Assembly: GCF_008386235.1 (NCBI RefSeq)
Contig: NZ_CP040671.1
Location: 2,358,001-2,422,000, forward strand
Direction of reading: 5' to 3'
Length of the DNA: 64,000 bases
Source of the DNA: Thermosynechococcus sp. CL-1
GTDB lineage: Bacteria; Cyanobacteriota; Cyanobacteriia; Thermosynechococcales; Thermosynechococcaceae
This document shows, piece by piece, positions 31,198-36,107 of the stretch. The notes under the pieces were generated by a model. That model had not been told where the DNA came from. It saw only the letters and a program-made list of their open reading frames with translations, and did not search any database. Position 1 is the first letter of the stretch; each line of letters starts with the position of its first letter. The position numbers were made by a program, and so were the translations under genes.

Positions 31198-32611
31198 CCC
31201 GTCGCCCCAGATAGCGGCCAAGGGTGTAGGCCAACCATTCCAGATCCCTTGAGGTCACGCTAAGGGCATTTTCAGTCAGTTCGATCGCTTGGCTACCGGC
31301 ACGAATCACCAGTTTGCTCGATAGCTCTTGGCGATCGCCCTCGCGATCGCGGTACGTGCTGTGGGGCTGAAATTCAATCTGTTCAATCACTTCAAGCGGC
31401 AGGACTTTGGGACGACGCCAGCGGAAACCAAGGATATGTTCATAGAAGCGCAGATCCTTACGGGTGACCATCAGCACCTGCCATCCCAATAGCATGTAAA
31501 GAATGCCGCCAATGAGGCCTAAACCGACAGCAAGATGACCAGTAGCAAAAACAGCCATCAGCCAAAAGCCAGAACTAATCGCTAGACTGTACCAGACGAC
31601 CAAAAACCCATTCCAAGCCACTGCAAAGGGAATCAGGAAGAGGAGACTGACATTAAATCCAACCGGGGGAATTTGCACCAGTAGCCCTTGGGGTGTTTCT
31701 CTCACCTGTAGGCGGGAGCCGTAGGGCGGCGTTTTTGTTATGAGTGAGGCCTCGTGGGGTGATGTGTCCAGTCGCTTTAGGGCTTGGCGAGCCGCAGTCG
31801 CGGAGTCAAATCGCTCCTCAAGGGCGGGCGCGACCATTTTTTCGAGCCAGCGGATAAAAGGGGGACTCAAGGAGACCAAGGGTTGAAATTGAACCCGCAG
31901 TTCCTTTTGCGGCAGCTCATCGGGGGGAGTGCCGGTTGCTAAGTAGATGAGGGTCATGCCCAAGGCGTAGAGATCACTGGCGGGTAGGGTTTTACCGCCG
32001 AATTGTTCCGGGGGCATATAGCCATAGGTACCCACCACGGTTCGGGTGCTGCCTGCGATCGCGGTTTGTACCGCCCCAAAGTCCACAAGATAGACCTTGC
32101 CAAGATCATGACCGGAGCGATCGCCCAAGAGAATATTTGTCGGCTTAATATCGCGGTGAATCACCGGTGGTTGACGGCCATGGAGATAGATCAAAATATC
32201 CAGCAGGCGATCGGCCAACAGCCGCAAATCCTCTTCACTAAACACTCGTCCTTCTGCTTGCCATGTGGCGAGGGATTTTGCCTCAATGTAGGTTTGCACC
32301 AAAGCAAAGCCCTTGAGATCAGGGGTATTGATTTCAAAGTAGTCGAGATAGCGGGGAATGGCCGGATGATCCAAGGTTTGCAGCACAGCCGCTTCCCGTT
32401 CAAAGAGCTTAAAGTCGTCCCATGTCATGCCGCCACCAAAAAGCAGCAGCTTCAGCACCACCTGTTCATAGCGCCGCCGATCCAACGCCAGATAGGTGCG
32501 CCGCCCCGGATGAGACCCCAGTTCGCGCAGGAGTTCATAGCGATCGCCCAAAATTTCACCAATGAGCTGCGCCACAGCGTTCTCCAAGCTGGCTACCCCT
32601 ATCTTAGCCAT
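31163..32611 (-). CDS. Serine/threonine protein kinase with C-terminal membrane segments
   Basis: The 482-residue protein begins at ATG 32611. Its kinase domain runs from about residues 20 to 270: the LGDRYELLRELGSH start, a Lys in VVLKLLLFGG, the catalytic HRDIKPTNILLG, the VDFGAV metal-binding motif and YGYMPPEQFGG. After a linker, two hydrophobic stretches (SLLFLIPFAVAWNGFLVVWY and LMAVFATGHLAVGLGLIGGILYMLL) anchor it, followed by a soluble tail. Hanks-type kinases of this layout are common in cyanobacteria; targets are unknown. Its first 8 nt overlap the upstream phosphorylase gene. Confidence 0.9.
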   Translation of the reverse strand: MAKIGVASLENAVAQLIGEILGDRYELLRELGSHPGRRTYLALDRRRYEQVVLKLLLFGGGMTWDDFKLFEREAAVLQTLDHPAIPRYLDYFEINTPDLKGFALVQTYIEAKSLATWQAEGRVFSEEDLRLLADRLLDILIYLHGRQPPVIHRDIKPTNILLGDRSGHDLGKVYLVDFGAVQTAIAGSTRTVVGTYGYMPPEQFGGKTLPASDLYALGMTLIYLATGTPPDELPQKELRVQFQPLVSLSPPFIRWLEKMVAPALEERFDSATAARQALKRLDTSPHEASLITKTPPYGSRLQVRETPQGLLVQIPPVGFNVSLLFLIPFAVAWNGFLVVWYSLAISSGFWLMAVFATGHLAVGLGLIGGILYMLLGWQVLMVTRKDLRFYEHILGFRWRRPKVLPLEVIEQIEFQPHSTYRDREGDRQELSSKLVIRAGSQAIELTENALSVTSRDLEWLAYTLGRYLGRRVTQARQDVRSA

Positions 32612-33254
32612 TGAGTTGCTGCACAATCTCTGGGGCAATTCTTGTGAGCACCTTGAGGGCTTTGAGGCTACCTTGAATCAAGTGTGCCGCCCCACGGGGG
32701 TTGCGCAGCATTGCAATAGCCAGTGGCCCCGGCCGCAAATTGCCTTGAGCATCAAAGGCTTGACTCAAATCGGGGAGGTCGCGATCGCCACCATCACTGA
32801 TCACCCGCACCATCACCACCGGCATTCCCGCTAAAGCCTTGAGGAGTGGCACCCCTTCCATATCCACCACCTCCACCCCCCAGCGAACCGCAAGACTCTG
32901 TTTTTCCTGAGCCTGAGAAAGGGTTCTTGCGGTTGTGATGCCTTTTACCCGTCGCCAAGCAGGCGCTAATTTCGCCGATAACGTCTGGTCTAAAGAATAC
33001 GTTTGCCCTGTTTCATCCTGACACGTGGCATAAACCACCACTTCACCGATGCGATCATCAGGACGTAAGCCGCCACAGACCCCCAAGATGAGAACCATGG
33101 CAGGCGATTCCCTGAGGGCACTGATCAATGCCGGTGTGGTCACTGTGGCTGCCCCCGCTCGGATCGGAATAATCACCCCCTTGGACGCCTGTAGCCCCCG
33201 TTGTACCGCTTGATATTCTGCCCCTTGGGGCACAAGGACGAGGCATGAGGTCAT
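32604..33254 (-). CDS. Nucleoside phosphorylase-like protein (PNP/MTA family, possible HpnG)
   Basis: The 216-residue protein has the PNP_UDP_1 fold features: a PQGAEYQAV start, ILGVCGGLRPDDRIGEVVV, VVDMEGVPLLKAL (the substrate-binding Met-Glu) and VRVISDGGDRDLPDL with the catalytic Asp. In hopanoid producers a related phosphorylase (HpnG) releases adenine from adenosylhopane, and squalene synthase lies divergently 393 nt away here, so HpnG is plausible. A methylthioadenosine or S-adenosylhomocysteine nucleosidase role cannot be excluded. Confidence 0.75.
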   Translation of the reverse strand: MTSCLVLVPQGAEYQAVQRGLQASKGVIIPIRAGAATVTTPALISALRESPAMVLILGVCGGLRPDDRIGEVVVYATCQDETGQTYSLDQTLSAKLAPAWRRVKGITTARTLSQAQEKQSLAVRWGVEVVDMEGVPLLKALAGMPVVMVRVISDGGDRDLPDLSQAFDAQGNLRPGPLAIAMLRNPRGAAHLIQGSLKALKVLTRIAPEIVQQLNG

Positions 33255-33647: not shown

Positions 33648-34727
33648 ATGCGTGTAGGAGTGAACCCCCATATGATTCAAATGGTGCTGGAGAACCCAGT
33701 TTCCGTCAAGGATGCTGAGCGCTTTTGCCAAGAGATACTCCCCCAAGTCTCGCGCACATTTGCCCTCAGTATTCGCTTCCTCCCCGGAAATTTGGGTCGG
33801 GCGGTTCTTGTGGCCTATCTCATCTGTCGCATTGCCGATACCGTTGAGGATGATCCGGTCGCCAGTATCCCCGCAAAAACAGCTCTATTGGATCACCTGC
33901 TGGAGTGTTTTGACAGTGCCGATCTAGCCAATAGCTATGGTGAAACGGCACGGGGGGTTCAGGGGGAGCCAGCCCATGTCCAACTGGTGAAAAATACGAG
34001 ACTCGTCTTTGCCCTCTACCGTTCTTTGCCCCTCACGTCCCAACAGCACGTCCAACGCTGGGTGAGCGAAATGGTGCATGGGATGAAAAAGTTTATTAAC
34101 CTCTATCCCAATGGCATTCGCATTCAAACCCTCGATGAATATAAGGAGTACTGTTATTACGTCGCGGGTACCGTTGGCTATCTCCTGACGGATTTGTGGT
34201 ACGAGCATTCCCCCAGCATTGGTGCCGATGAATACCAAGTACTCCTCAAGCGCTGCGCTGCCTTTGGTGAAGCGCTGCAAACGGTGAATATTCTCAAGGA
34301 TATTGCTTGGGATGCGGAGCACGAAAACTCGATCTATATCCCCAATGAATCTCTGCTGCTCCAAGGCAGTAGCCACCAGTCCATCCTCAGTGCTGAACAT
34401 CTTGAGCAAAATCATGCCGCCATTAAGGAATTGATTGCCCTTGCTTGGCATGATCTCGATGAAGCTCAAGCCTACTTGCTATCCGTGCCCAAGGCGGCAA
34501 TTCCGATTCGCCTCTTTTGCGTGCTGCCGCTGCTCTTTGCCTATGCCACCCTACGGGAACTCACTCACTCGACGGCGATGCTGCAACCGGGAGGGGTAGT
34601 TAAAATTAGCCGTGCAGAGGTGAAATCCCTGATGGTCATGGGGCCTTTATCGATTCTCAGTAACCACAGTCTGCGCTGGCTGATTGGCCAAGTACGGCAA
34701 AAGCCTTTCATCCTTGGCGGACTTTAG
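33648..34727 (+). CDS. sqs: Squalene synthase
   Basis: Squalene synthase joins two farnesyl diphosphates and reduces the product to squalene, the precursor of hopanoids. The 359-residue protein has SRTFALSIRFLPGNLGRAV, the first Asp-rich motif in YLICRIADTVEDD, the YCYYVAGTVGYLLTDLW segment, and the second Asp/Glu-rich region NILKDIAWDAEHE. These follow the eukaryote-like squalene synthase order rather than phytoene synthase. The T. elongatus enzyme has been studied biochemically (literature knowledge). A second ATG 8 codons in is an alternative start. Hydrophobic C-terminal residues are consistent with membrane association. Confidence 0.88.
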   Translation: MRVGVNPHMIQMVLENPVSVKDAERFCQEILPQVSRTFALSIRFLPGNLGRAVLVAYLICRIADTVEDDPVASIPAKTALLDHLLECFDSADLANSYGETARGVQGEPAHVQLVKNTRLVFALYRSLPLTSQQHVQRWVSEMVHGMKKFINLYPNGIRIQTLDEYKEYCYYVAGTVGYLLTDLWYEHSPSIGADEYQVLLKRCAAFGEALQTVNILKDIAWDAEHENSIYIPNESLLLQGSSHQSILSAEHLEQNHAAIKELIALAWHDLDEAQAYLLSVPKAAIPIRLFCVLPLLFAYATLRELTHSTAMLQPGGVVKISRAEVKSLMVMGPLSILSNHSLRWLIGQVRQKPFILGGL

Positions 34728-34820: not shown

Positions 34821-35693
34821 ATGAATTGTATTATTCACCGCCGTGCTGAGTTTGCCGCCAGTCATCGCTACTGGTTGCCAGAATGGTCTGAAGCAGAGAA
34901 TTTGGCTCGGTTTGGTGCCAATAGTCGCTTTCCCGGCCACGGTCATAACTATGAGTTGTTTGTTTCAATGGGCGGCGTTGTTGATGACTTTGGCATGGTG
35001 TTGAACCTATCGGATGTCAAGCACATCATTCGCCGTGAAGTCATTGAACCCCTGAATTTTTCCTATCTCAATGAGGTGTGGCCAGAGTTTCAAGCCACAT
35101 TACCCACGACTGAACATATTGCACGGGTGATTTGGGATCGACTCTCTCCCCATTTACCCCTTGTGCGCATTCAACTGTTTGAACACCCCCGCCTTTGGGC
35201 GGACTACACGGGAGGCCCTATGGAAGCCTATCTTTCTGTTGGTGCTCACTTTAGTGCGGCGCATCGTCTAGCCCTTGAGGATCTCAGCTACGAAGAAAAC
35301 TGCCGCATCTATGGCAAGTGTGCTCGCCCCCACGGCCATGGCCACAACTACCACGTGGAGATTACGGTCAAGGGGGCGATTCATCCGCGGACGGGCATGA
35401 TTGTTGATTTGATCAAGCTCGAGGAGGTGCTCAAGGAACAGGTGATTGAACCTTTGGATCACACGTTTTTGAATAAAGATATTCCCTATTTTGCGACGGT
35501 GGTGCCGACGGCAGAGAATATCGCCATTTACATTGCCCAGTTGTTGCAGGAGCCGATTCGCCAGTTGGGGGCGACGCTGCATAAGGTGAAGTTGATTGAA
35601 AGTCCCAATAACTCTTGCGAAATTCTCTGTGAGGAATTGCCCCCTCGCGATGGGGTGCTCAGTGGTGTGCTGCCAGTGTTGGAGCGAGTCTAG
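34821..35693 (+). CDS. Tandem 6-pyruvoyl-tetrahydropterin synthase / QueD-like protein
   Basis: The 290-residue protein contains two PTPS/QueD domains. Domain 2 (about residues 134-290) has zinc ligands His144/148-like and HGHGHNY, catalytic Cys167 in GKCARPHG, and Asp213-His214 in PLDHTFLN. Domain 1 (about 1-130) keeps the zinc histidines (His15, His40, His42 in PGHGHNY), but the Cys position is Asn34 (FGANSRFPG) and the Asp-His pair is Asn79-Phe80 (PLNFSYLN), so it is probably inactive. Such enzymes convert dihydroneopterin triphosphate in pterin or queuosine synthesis. An N-terminal regulatory or structural domain is inferred. MAPEG follows at once. Confidence 0.9.
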   Translation: MNCIIHRRAEFAASHRYWLPEWSEAENLARFGANSRFPGHGHNYELFVSMGGVVDDFGMVLNLSDVKHIIRREVIEPLNFSYLNEVWPEFQATLPTTEHIARVIWDRLSPHLPLVRIQLFEHPRLWADYTGGPMEAYLSVGAHFSAAHRLALEDLSYEENCRIYGKCARPHGHGHNYHVEITVKGAIHPRTGMIVDLIKLEEVLKEQVIEPLDHTFLNKDIPYFATVVPTAENIAIYIAQLLQEPIRQLGATLHKVKLIESPNNSCEILCEELPPRDGVLSGVLPVLERV

Positions 35694-36107
35694 GTGATGT
35701 TGAGCAATATCCCTTGGCTACTAGCCGCCAGTTTACTGACAGCAACGCTGCTGATCTATTTCCCCTACATTTTTGTTGTGGTGGGGCGCTTGCAGGCGGG
35801 CTTTGATATGGCGGCTCCCCGTGCCCTCTTTGAGAAACTGCCCCCCTTTGCGCAGCGGGCGGTGTGGGCACACGAAAATAGCTTTGAAACCTTTATGCCC
35901 TTTGCGGCGGCAGTGTTGCTGACCCTTTTTGCGGGGGTGCATAATTCAACGGTGGCGATCGCCAGCCTCAGTTTCGTTGCGGCTCGCTTTTTGTACAGCA
36001 TCTGCTATATTGCCAACTTTCCCCTTGGTCGCTCCCTCATGTTTGGTGTCGGCACAGCAGCCACCTTGACGCTTTTTTGGCAAAGTCTCACCGCCCTTGG
36101 CCGTTAA
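35694..36107 (+). CDS. MAPEG family membrane protein
   Basis: The 137-residue protein has four predicted membrane helices and the MAPEG pattern: FDMAAPRALFEKLPPFAQRAVWAHENSFETFMPFAAAVLL followed by ARFLYSICYIANFPLGRSLMFGVG. MAPEG proteins include microsomal glutathione transferases and eicosanoid enzymes; bacterial ones are largely uncharacterised. The start is GTG 35694 or ATG 35697, directly after the previous stop codon, implying translational coupling with the tandem pterin synthase. Confidence 0.87.
   Translation: MMLSNIPWLLAASLLTATLLIYFPYIFVVVGRLQAGFDMAAPRALFEKLPPFAQRAVWAHENSFETFMPFAAAVLLTLFAGVHNSTVAIASLSFVAARFLYSICYIANFPLGRSLMFGVGTAATLTLFWQSLTALGR

Follow-up and report, generated by a model that had tools for sequence, protein, structure and literature searches.

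Why should a pterin synthase carry two copies of its fold in a single chain when one of them has lost residues needed for catalysis? The question is raised by a gene of Thermosynechococcus sp. CL-1, located within the 64,000-nucleotide stretch of DNA that was analyzed as a whole (hereafter the window) and encoding a protein of the 6-pyruvoyl/6-carboxy-tetrahydropterin synthase (PTPS) family (Table 1). The reaction typical of the family converts dihydroneopterin triphosphate to 6-pyruvoyltetrahydropterin. A preliminary description, made from the sequence, had interpreted the gene as a two-domain PTPS with a catalytically dead first domain (D1) and an intact second domain (D2). Its open reading frame, coordinates and every residue that it named proved correct: D1 has His15, His40 and His42 but Asn34 and Asn79-Phe80 at the catalytic positions, and D2 has Cys167 and Asp213-His214.

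Table 1. Features of the tandem PTPS gene, in window positions; residue counts refer to the 188 distinct bimodular proteins described in the text
Feature	Position	Strand	Evidence
Bimodular 6-pyruvoyl/6-carboxy-tetrahydropterin synthase family gene, 290 aa	34821..35693	+	Two PF01242 domains
Domain 1 (D1), residues 1-131, non-catalytic PTPS T-fold	34821..35213	+	PF01242 match; catalytic positions substituted
D1 zinc ligand His15	34863..34865	+	H in 185/188
D1 Asn34 at the catalytic Cys position	34920..34922	+	C 131, G 29, N 10, T 10, A 3, H 2, S 2, F 1 (n=188)
D1 zinc ligands His40 and His42 (HGH)	34938..34946	+	Each H in 185/188
D1 Asn79-Phe80 at the catalytic Asp-His position	35055..35060	+	His at second position in 0/188
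Interdomain turn, residues 130-135	35208..35225	+	Tyr129-His143 spacing; strand–loop–strand in each AlphaFold model
Domain 2 (D2), residues 134-275, catalytic PTPS T-fold	35220..35645	+	PF01242 match; phmmer 2.3e-35 to rat PTPS 1b66; catalytic and zinc residues all in 188/188
D2 catalytic Cys167	35319..35321	+	188/188
D2 catalytic Asp213-His214	35457..35462	+	188/188

The tandem protein among known PTPS types

The Pfam model of PTPS, PF01242, matched the 290-amino-acid chain twice (whole-protein E value 7.5e-62), in agreement with the two domains described earlier. Position 34 of D1 aligns with Cys167 of D2 (FGANSRFPGHGHNY versus YGKCARPHGHGHNY) and positions 79 and 80 align with Asp213-His214 (LNFSYLN versus LDHTFLN); the constant offset across the motifs and the scores of each domain above the Pfam cut-off rule out a chance similarity or misalignment of the two domains. 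The zinc site of D2 consists of His148, His173 and His175, and Cys167 and Asp213-His214 complete the set expected of an active enzyme, whereas D1 alone, with Asn34, Asn79 and Phe80, lacks the Cys and the Asp-His pair. The comparison with QueD and PTPS structures, proposed in the preliminary description, placed the D2 model on human/rat-type PTPS (3i2b; Z score 19.4, 136 residues, 1.2 Å) and the D1 model on E. coli QueD (4ntn; Z score 16.6, 117 residues, 1.6 Å).

A two-domain enzyme of this kind is a published type, bPTPS-II, and no peculiarity of this genome. Kong and colleagues are said to have reported in 2006 that the cyanobacterial PTPS-II, from Synechococcus PCC 7942, is of the bimodular form. 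The title of that study names bacterial PTPS-II with "single or dual domain structure" (Kong et al. 2006, PMID 16920111, as given in the reference list of PMC3546692). Our protein resembles the type in having two PF01242 stretches in one chain, in the zinc-binding His residues, Cys, Asp and His of D2, and in the motif CxxxxxHGH, given for PTPS-II in an excerpt of PMC5041015 and present in D2 as C167-ARPHG-H173-G-H175. D2 is ~46% identical to rat and human PTPS (1b66, 1gtq, 3i2b) and shares their zinc and catalytic residues, but these enzymes have a single domain and no inactive module. QueD or PTPS-I (E. coli 4ntk, 4ntn) has the same fold, and its signature CxxxHGH also fits D2 (C167-ARP-H171-G-H173); it differs in being a single domain that serves the queuosine pathway. 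The ExxHGH motif of PTPS-III, the folate bypass enzyme, is absent, the position of its Glu being occupied by Phe37 in D1 and Pro170 in D2.

The surroundings of the gene were variable: none of its own neighbors recurred close to the gene in more than 2 of 80 relatives, and the context therefore gives no function. A gene of the MAPEG family (window 35694-36107, +) begins right behind the PTPS stop codon. Elsewhere in the window, an HpnG-like phosphorylase (below the cut-off) lies next to a gene of the squalene/phytoene synthase family (window 32604-33254, −, and 33648-34727, +), a possible triterpenoid pair.

Active-site residues in bimodular homologs

To obtain homologs we searched 291 genomes of the phylum with the tandem protein, retrieved the best 30 matches as loci and added 100 further stretches, 93 of which contained bimodular or three-domain genes and 6 single-domain genes while 1 was useless (10 bases). 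A contig collection was also scanned with the same protein and its best 80 loci, all close relatives, were included. A full bimodular open reading frame was present at 192 loci, giving 188 distinct proteins as the basis of our counts; omitted from these are 11 three-domain frames, the single-domain frames and two additional loci representing the gene of the window itself, and four genomes with listed tandem matches (G161, G225, G247 and G259) stand outside the survey.

This survey of two-domain homologs, also called for in the preliminary description, gave a sharp result. D2 was complete in all 188 proteins, with every zinc and catalytic position tested identical. The catalytic His of D1 was found in none of them, its position being taken by Phe (145), Tyr (33), Asn (4), Gly (3) or, once each, Leu, Ala and Cys; the preceding position had Asp in 164, Asn in 22 and His in 2. 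As His is missing from D1 in 188 of 188 proteins while Cys is kept in 131, the loss of His is the universal defect, and the missing His rather than the missing Cys characterizes the family. The same holds in the 112-row species sample alone, where D1 had the Cys in 74 rows and the His in 0. The earlier view of D1 as dead was thus right about the absent residues and misplaced in its emphasis on Cys, which is replaced by Asn in 10 proteins. On a gene tree (a quick tree, computed with the catalytic and zinc columns excluded), the parsimony minimum was at least 20 state changes for the D1 Cys and one change for the D1 zinc site. The loss of the D1 Cys is late and repeated, and it is not the cause of D1 inactivity.

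The combination of Asn34 with Asn79-Phe80 was also seen in two other genomes of the genus surveyed, and two further Thermosynechococcus loci had His34 with Asn79-Phe80; in the Thermosynechococcus rows surveyed, either Asn or His thus occupies the position of the Cys. Because genomes of the same genus show the same or similar residues, the substitutions are not a sequencing quirk. A reactive Cys elsewhere in D1 would have overturned the earlier description, and the single candidate considered, Cys3 (window 34827-34829; present in 187/188), is more constant than the catalytic Cys position of D1; lying in the first strand, 12 residues ahead of the zinc ligand His15, it is unlikely to be catalytic, judging from the geometry that we infer. 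A pairing of Cys3 with Cys266 across the seam of a presumed ring is weakened by the presence of Cys266 in just 142 of the 188 proteins.

The remainder of the D1 pocket was highly conserved. Each of the three zinc His residues was retained in 185 proteins, Glu98 in 188 and Glu121 in 185, and the three His, Glu121 and the Thr-Thr-Glu motif were all present together in 184. The mean pairwise identity was 0.724 for D1 and 0.737 for D2 (17,578 pairs), and Nei–Gojobori dN/dS values in ten Thermosynechococcus pairs were 0.034–0.082 for D1 and 0.033–0.124 for D2. With low dN/dS and an identity close to that of D2, D1 is functional by that measure and, as it lacks the catalytic residues yet is under purifying selection, a non-catalytic role is a sensible inference. 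The spacing between the domains was similarly fixed, Tyr129 and His143 being separated by 13 residues in 185 of 188 proteins.

Domain arrangement and origin of the fusion

Two AlphaFold models of the whole chain, one built with 52 sequences (pLDDT 89.9, pTM 0.82) and another with an Acaryochloris protein as lead and 26 sequences (pLDDT 89.0, pTM 0.81), predicted D1 and D2 to lie side by side as in chains with tandem T-folds, such as urate oxidase. The two models matched single urate oxidase chains with Z scores of 12.9 (221 residues, 4.1 Å) and 13.2 (223 residues, 4.1 Å) and GTP cyclohydrolase IB with 11.8 (199 residues, 4.4 Å) and 12.0 (200 residues, 4.3 Å), the matches spanning residues 1 to ~275 and thus both domains. 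The sequence identity in these structural alignments was 5–11% and the chemistry of the enzymes is different, so the likeness is one of arrangement only: two T-folds adjacent within one chain, as predicted for ours. The side-by-side placement could also merely reflect the handling of the short turn by AlphaFold.

According to an excerpt of PMC5138847, a urate oxidase monomer contains T-folds in tandem, the barrel is built from two such monomers with two T-folds each, and the tetramer has four active sites at the dimer interfaces; the active sites are fewer than the T-folds. PTPS, as outlined in part of PMC7546909, is a dimer of trimers with active sites between three monomers, and its catalytic triad is intersubunit according to the title of Burgisser 1995 (reference list of PMC2229834). 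Given an intersubunit triad, the residues missing from D1 cannot be assigned to D1's own pocket without knowing the assembly. We take the assignment of pocket residues to subunits to follow the geometry of the rat enzyme. If D1 and D2 are indeed neighbors, whole two-domain chains could not make up a three-membered ring, while a ring of four would be possible.

Two adjoining single-domain PTPS genes were found in each of two genomes from a deep relative (f34; L204, 4827-5851; L205, 4989-5856). The genes share 4 bases in L204 and lie 1 base apart in L205. Their first gene has the Cys and the zinc ligands but Asp-Phe at the position of Asp-His, while the second has the full set. In trees, the first gene clusters with cyanobacterial D1 (support 100/93 and 98/95), and the gene pair is likely the pre-fusion state. 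Gene order, the Phe and the tree together suggest that the His of D1 was lost before the genes were fused. Adjacent PTPS genes were present in 2 of the 18 genomes searched in the class of this relative, and the neighbors of the two pairs were unrelated. The AU test rejected neither a duplication after the split (P = 0.088) nor one within f34 (P = 0.078). The split into D1 and D2 types is probably older than the fusion, which makes the word "duplicate" misleading; of the earlier proposal that a duplicate domain was retained for a non-catalytic role, the role agrees with the purifying selection on D1 and the term does not fit. The open-licence literature searched yielded no adjacent pair of D1-like and D2-like genes. 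Among plasmid records 20 matched, one of them in two pieces across most of the query (34% identity) and the others partially. Three genomes of another family (f2; L201, L202 and L203) carry an extra solo gene of D2 type, a 171-aa open frame, besides a tandem gene elsewhere in the genome.

Two groups of proteins depart from the common form. One family (f9) has three bimodular proteins (L198, L199 and L200) in which D1 is kept without the three zinc His, the Cys, the catalytic His and Glu121, and many residues of its strands, turns and helix are still invariant there. A further 11 proteins (L172, L186, L188 and L190–L197; open frames of 430–439 aa) have three domains in the order D1, a middle domain derived from D2, and D2; such forms were not met in the open-licence literature searched. 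The middle domain is a copy of D2 with a D1-type last strand and a complete site, and the six middle domains placed in the tree form a single group (100/95). One zinc His of the first domain is gone in all 11: in seven of them His15 has become Arg, Gly, Cys or Ser, and in four His40 has become Gln. A D1 zinc ligand was thus lost in 11 of 11 three-domain and 3 of 188 bimodular proteins, a contrast that a Fisher test overstates because the 11 share ancestry; the variety of replacement residues points to several losses rather than a single one among them. Tentatively, and with more doubt than confidence, these observations could be joined into one history: a four-membered barrel of the urate oxidase kind, with live D2 and dead D1 in alternation, would have replaced the three-membered PTPS ring through fusion of an older heteromeric gene pair whose D1 partner already lacked the His, and one cyanobacterial lineage would then have formed a chain of three domains that could complete a three-membered ring alone, its D1 zinc being lost afterwards.

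Function of the first domain and of the tandem

Cyanobacteria make pterin glycosides at high levels. For Synechococcus PCC 7942, an excerpt of PMC5041015 reports in vitro PTPS activity of PTPS-II and finds PTPS-I dispensable for BH4. The CL-1 genome contains two FolE genes, QueC, QueF and a QueE-like radical-SAM protein below the curated cut-offs; in its 2.65 Mb (one contig), the tandem gene is alone in exceeding the Pfam cut-off for the PTPS family, and the same search gave no separate QueD. The queC, queE-like and queF genes are all located away from the tandem gene, without the clustering looked for in a QueD or PTPS-I gene. The chain passes the TIGR03367 model with 115 bits against a cut-off of 89.25, the score being summed across the two domains. 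Among 145 genomes of the class, QueC was present (E value 1e-30 or better) in 110; exactly two PF01242 matches, which we took as the tandem alone, were found in 51 of these 110, and three or more in 56 of the 110 versus 0 of the 35 without QueC, a count of three including the possibility of one three-domain gene. These counts suggest that in many species the tandem may also serve queuosine synthesis. A dual QueD/PTPS motif with His171 as the explanation of the tandem-only genomes was unsupported, as His171 was found in 8 of 15 tandem-only and 11 of 20 other QueC-bearing genomes.

The reading that we consider the most probable, and hold with reasonable though guarded confidence, is that in cyanobacterial bPTPS-II D2 is the sole catalytic unit and D1 its obligate partner, a non-catalytic domain needed to complete the barrel and in most cases still equipped with a zinc and pterin pocket. 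D2, with its zinc site, Cys167 and Asp213-His214, would putatively perform the family reaction, which D1 would be unable to complete because the Asp-His donor is missing. The last strand of D1 would lead through the short fixed turn to the first strand of D2, and this strand–turn–strand join is predicted to make the two domains one continuous half-barrel like that of urate oxidase and GTP cyclohydrolase IB. A barrel of four T-folds may then arise from two chains, and two such barrels may stack with D2 opposite D2, so that the intersubunit triads of Cys and Asp-His would form among D2 units only. The D1 pocket, where kept, may add stability or hold a ligand. The persistence of D1 without zinc ligands and Glu121 in 3 of 188 proteins would count for a structural role. 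The proposed ring of four T-folds, set against the known PTPS rings of three, counts against the model, and the retention of the D1 pocket in 184 proteins seems to exceed the needs of a bare scaffold and favors a bound ligand.

That ligand leads to a rather unlikely but still serious alternative, in which D1 is a regulatory sensor: it would hold a pterin, be it the substrate, the product or an end product, at its zinc without turnover and alter the activity of D2. It would explain why the pocket is intact in 184 of 188 proteins although the His is always gone and the Cys drifts, and why all 11 three-domain proteins, having gained a domain with a complete site, lost a D1 zinc ligand by varied substitutions, as if the job of the pocket had passed to the extra domain; the three f9 proteins, however, keep D1 without any pocket. 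Conservation of the zinc site, the Cys of 131 proteins and the intersubunit triad (Burgisser 1995, by its title) would suit hybrid active sites, in which the zinc and Cys of D1 meet the Asp-His of a D2 unit and D1 is catalytic wherever the Cys is kept. We find this improbable: the D1 Cys has changed at least 20 times and is absent from the Thermosynechococcus rows surveyed while that of D2 is invariant, and a D1 facing D2 would leave the site of D2 itself without its His partner.

The scarcity of other PTPS genes could be accounted for if D1 catalyzed a different pterin reaction, such as cleavage of the side chain or, in queuosine synthesis, the 6-carboxytetrahydropterin step, since the tandem is the only family member above the cut-off in a genome with QueC, QueE-like and QueF genes and apparently so in the 51 QueC-bearing genomes with two matches. 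It is nevertheless very improbable for a domain that here lacks Cys, Asp and His and that is zinc-less in the QueC-bearing f9 genomes, and if the tandem does replace QueD, D2 is the candidate for the task. We give as little credence to D1 being a functionless relic in slow decay: repeated loss of the Cys, and loss of zinc in a single lineage of bimodular proteins as well as in every three-domain protein surveyed, would agree with decay, but dN/dS near 0.05 and an identity equal to that of D2 would not. The solo D2-type genes indicate that D2 without D1 is possible, but each of their three genomes has a full tandem elsewhere, and replacement of the tandem by the solo gene was not observed there, which also speaks against a relic.

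For annotators, the relevant points are that the chain passes the QueD model and that about half of the sampled QueC-bearing cyanobacterial genomes seem to have no other QueD candidate in the PTPS family. The family also provides a natural series of two genes, a fused pair, a zinc-less pair and a three-domain chain, in which one domain is still under selection after its catalysis was lost, and which therefore makes the division of labor within a T-fold ring directly testable.
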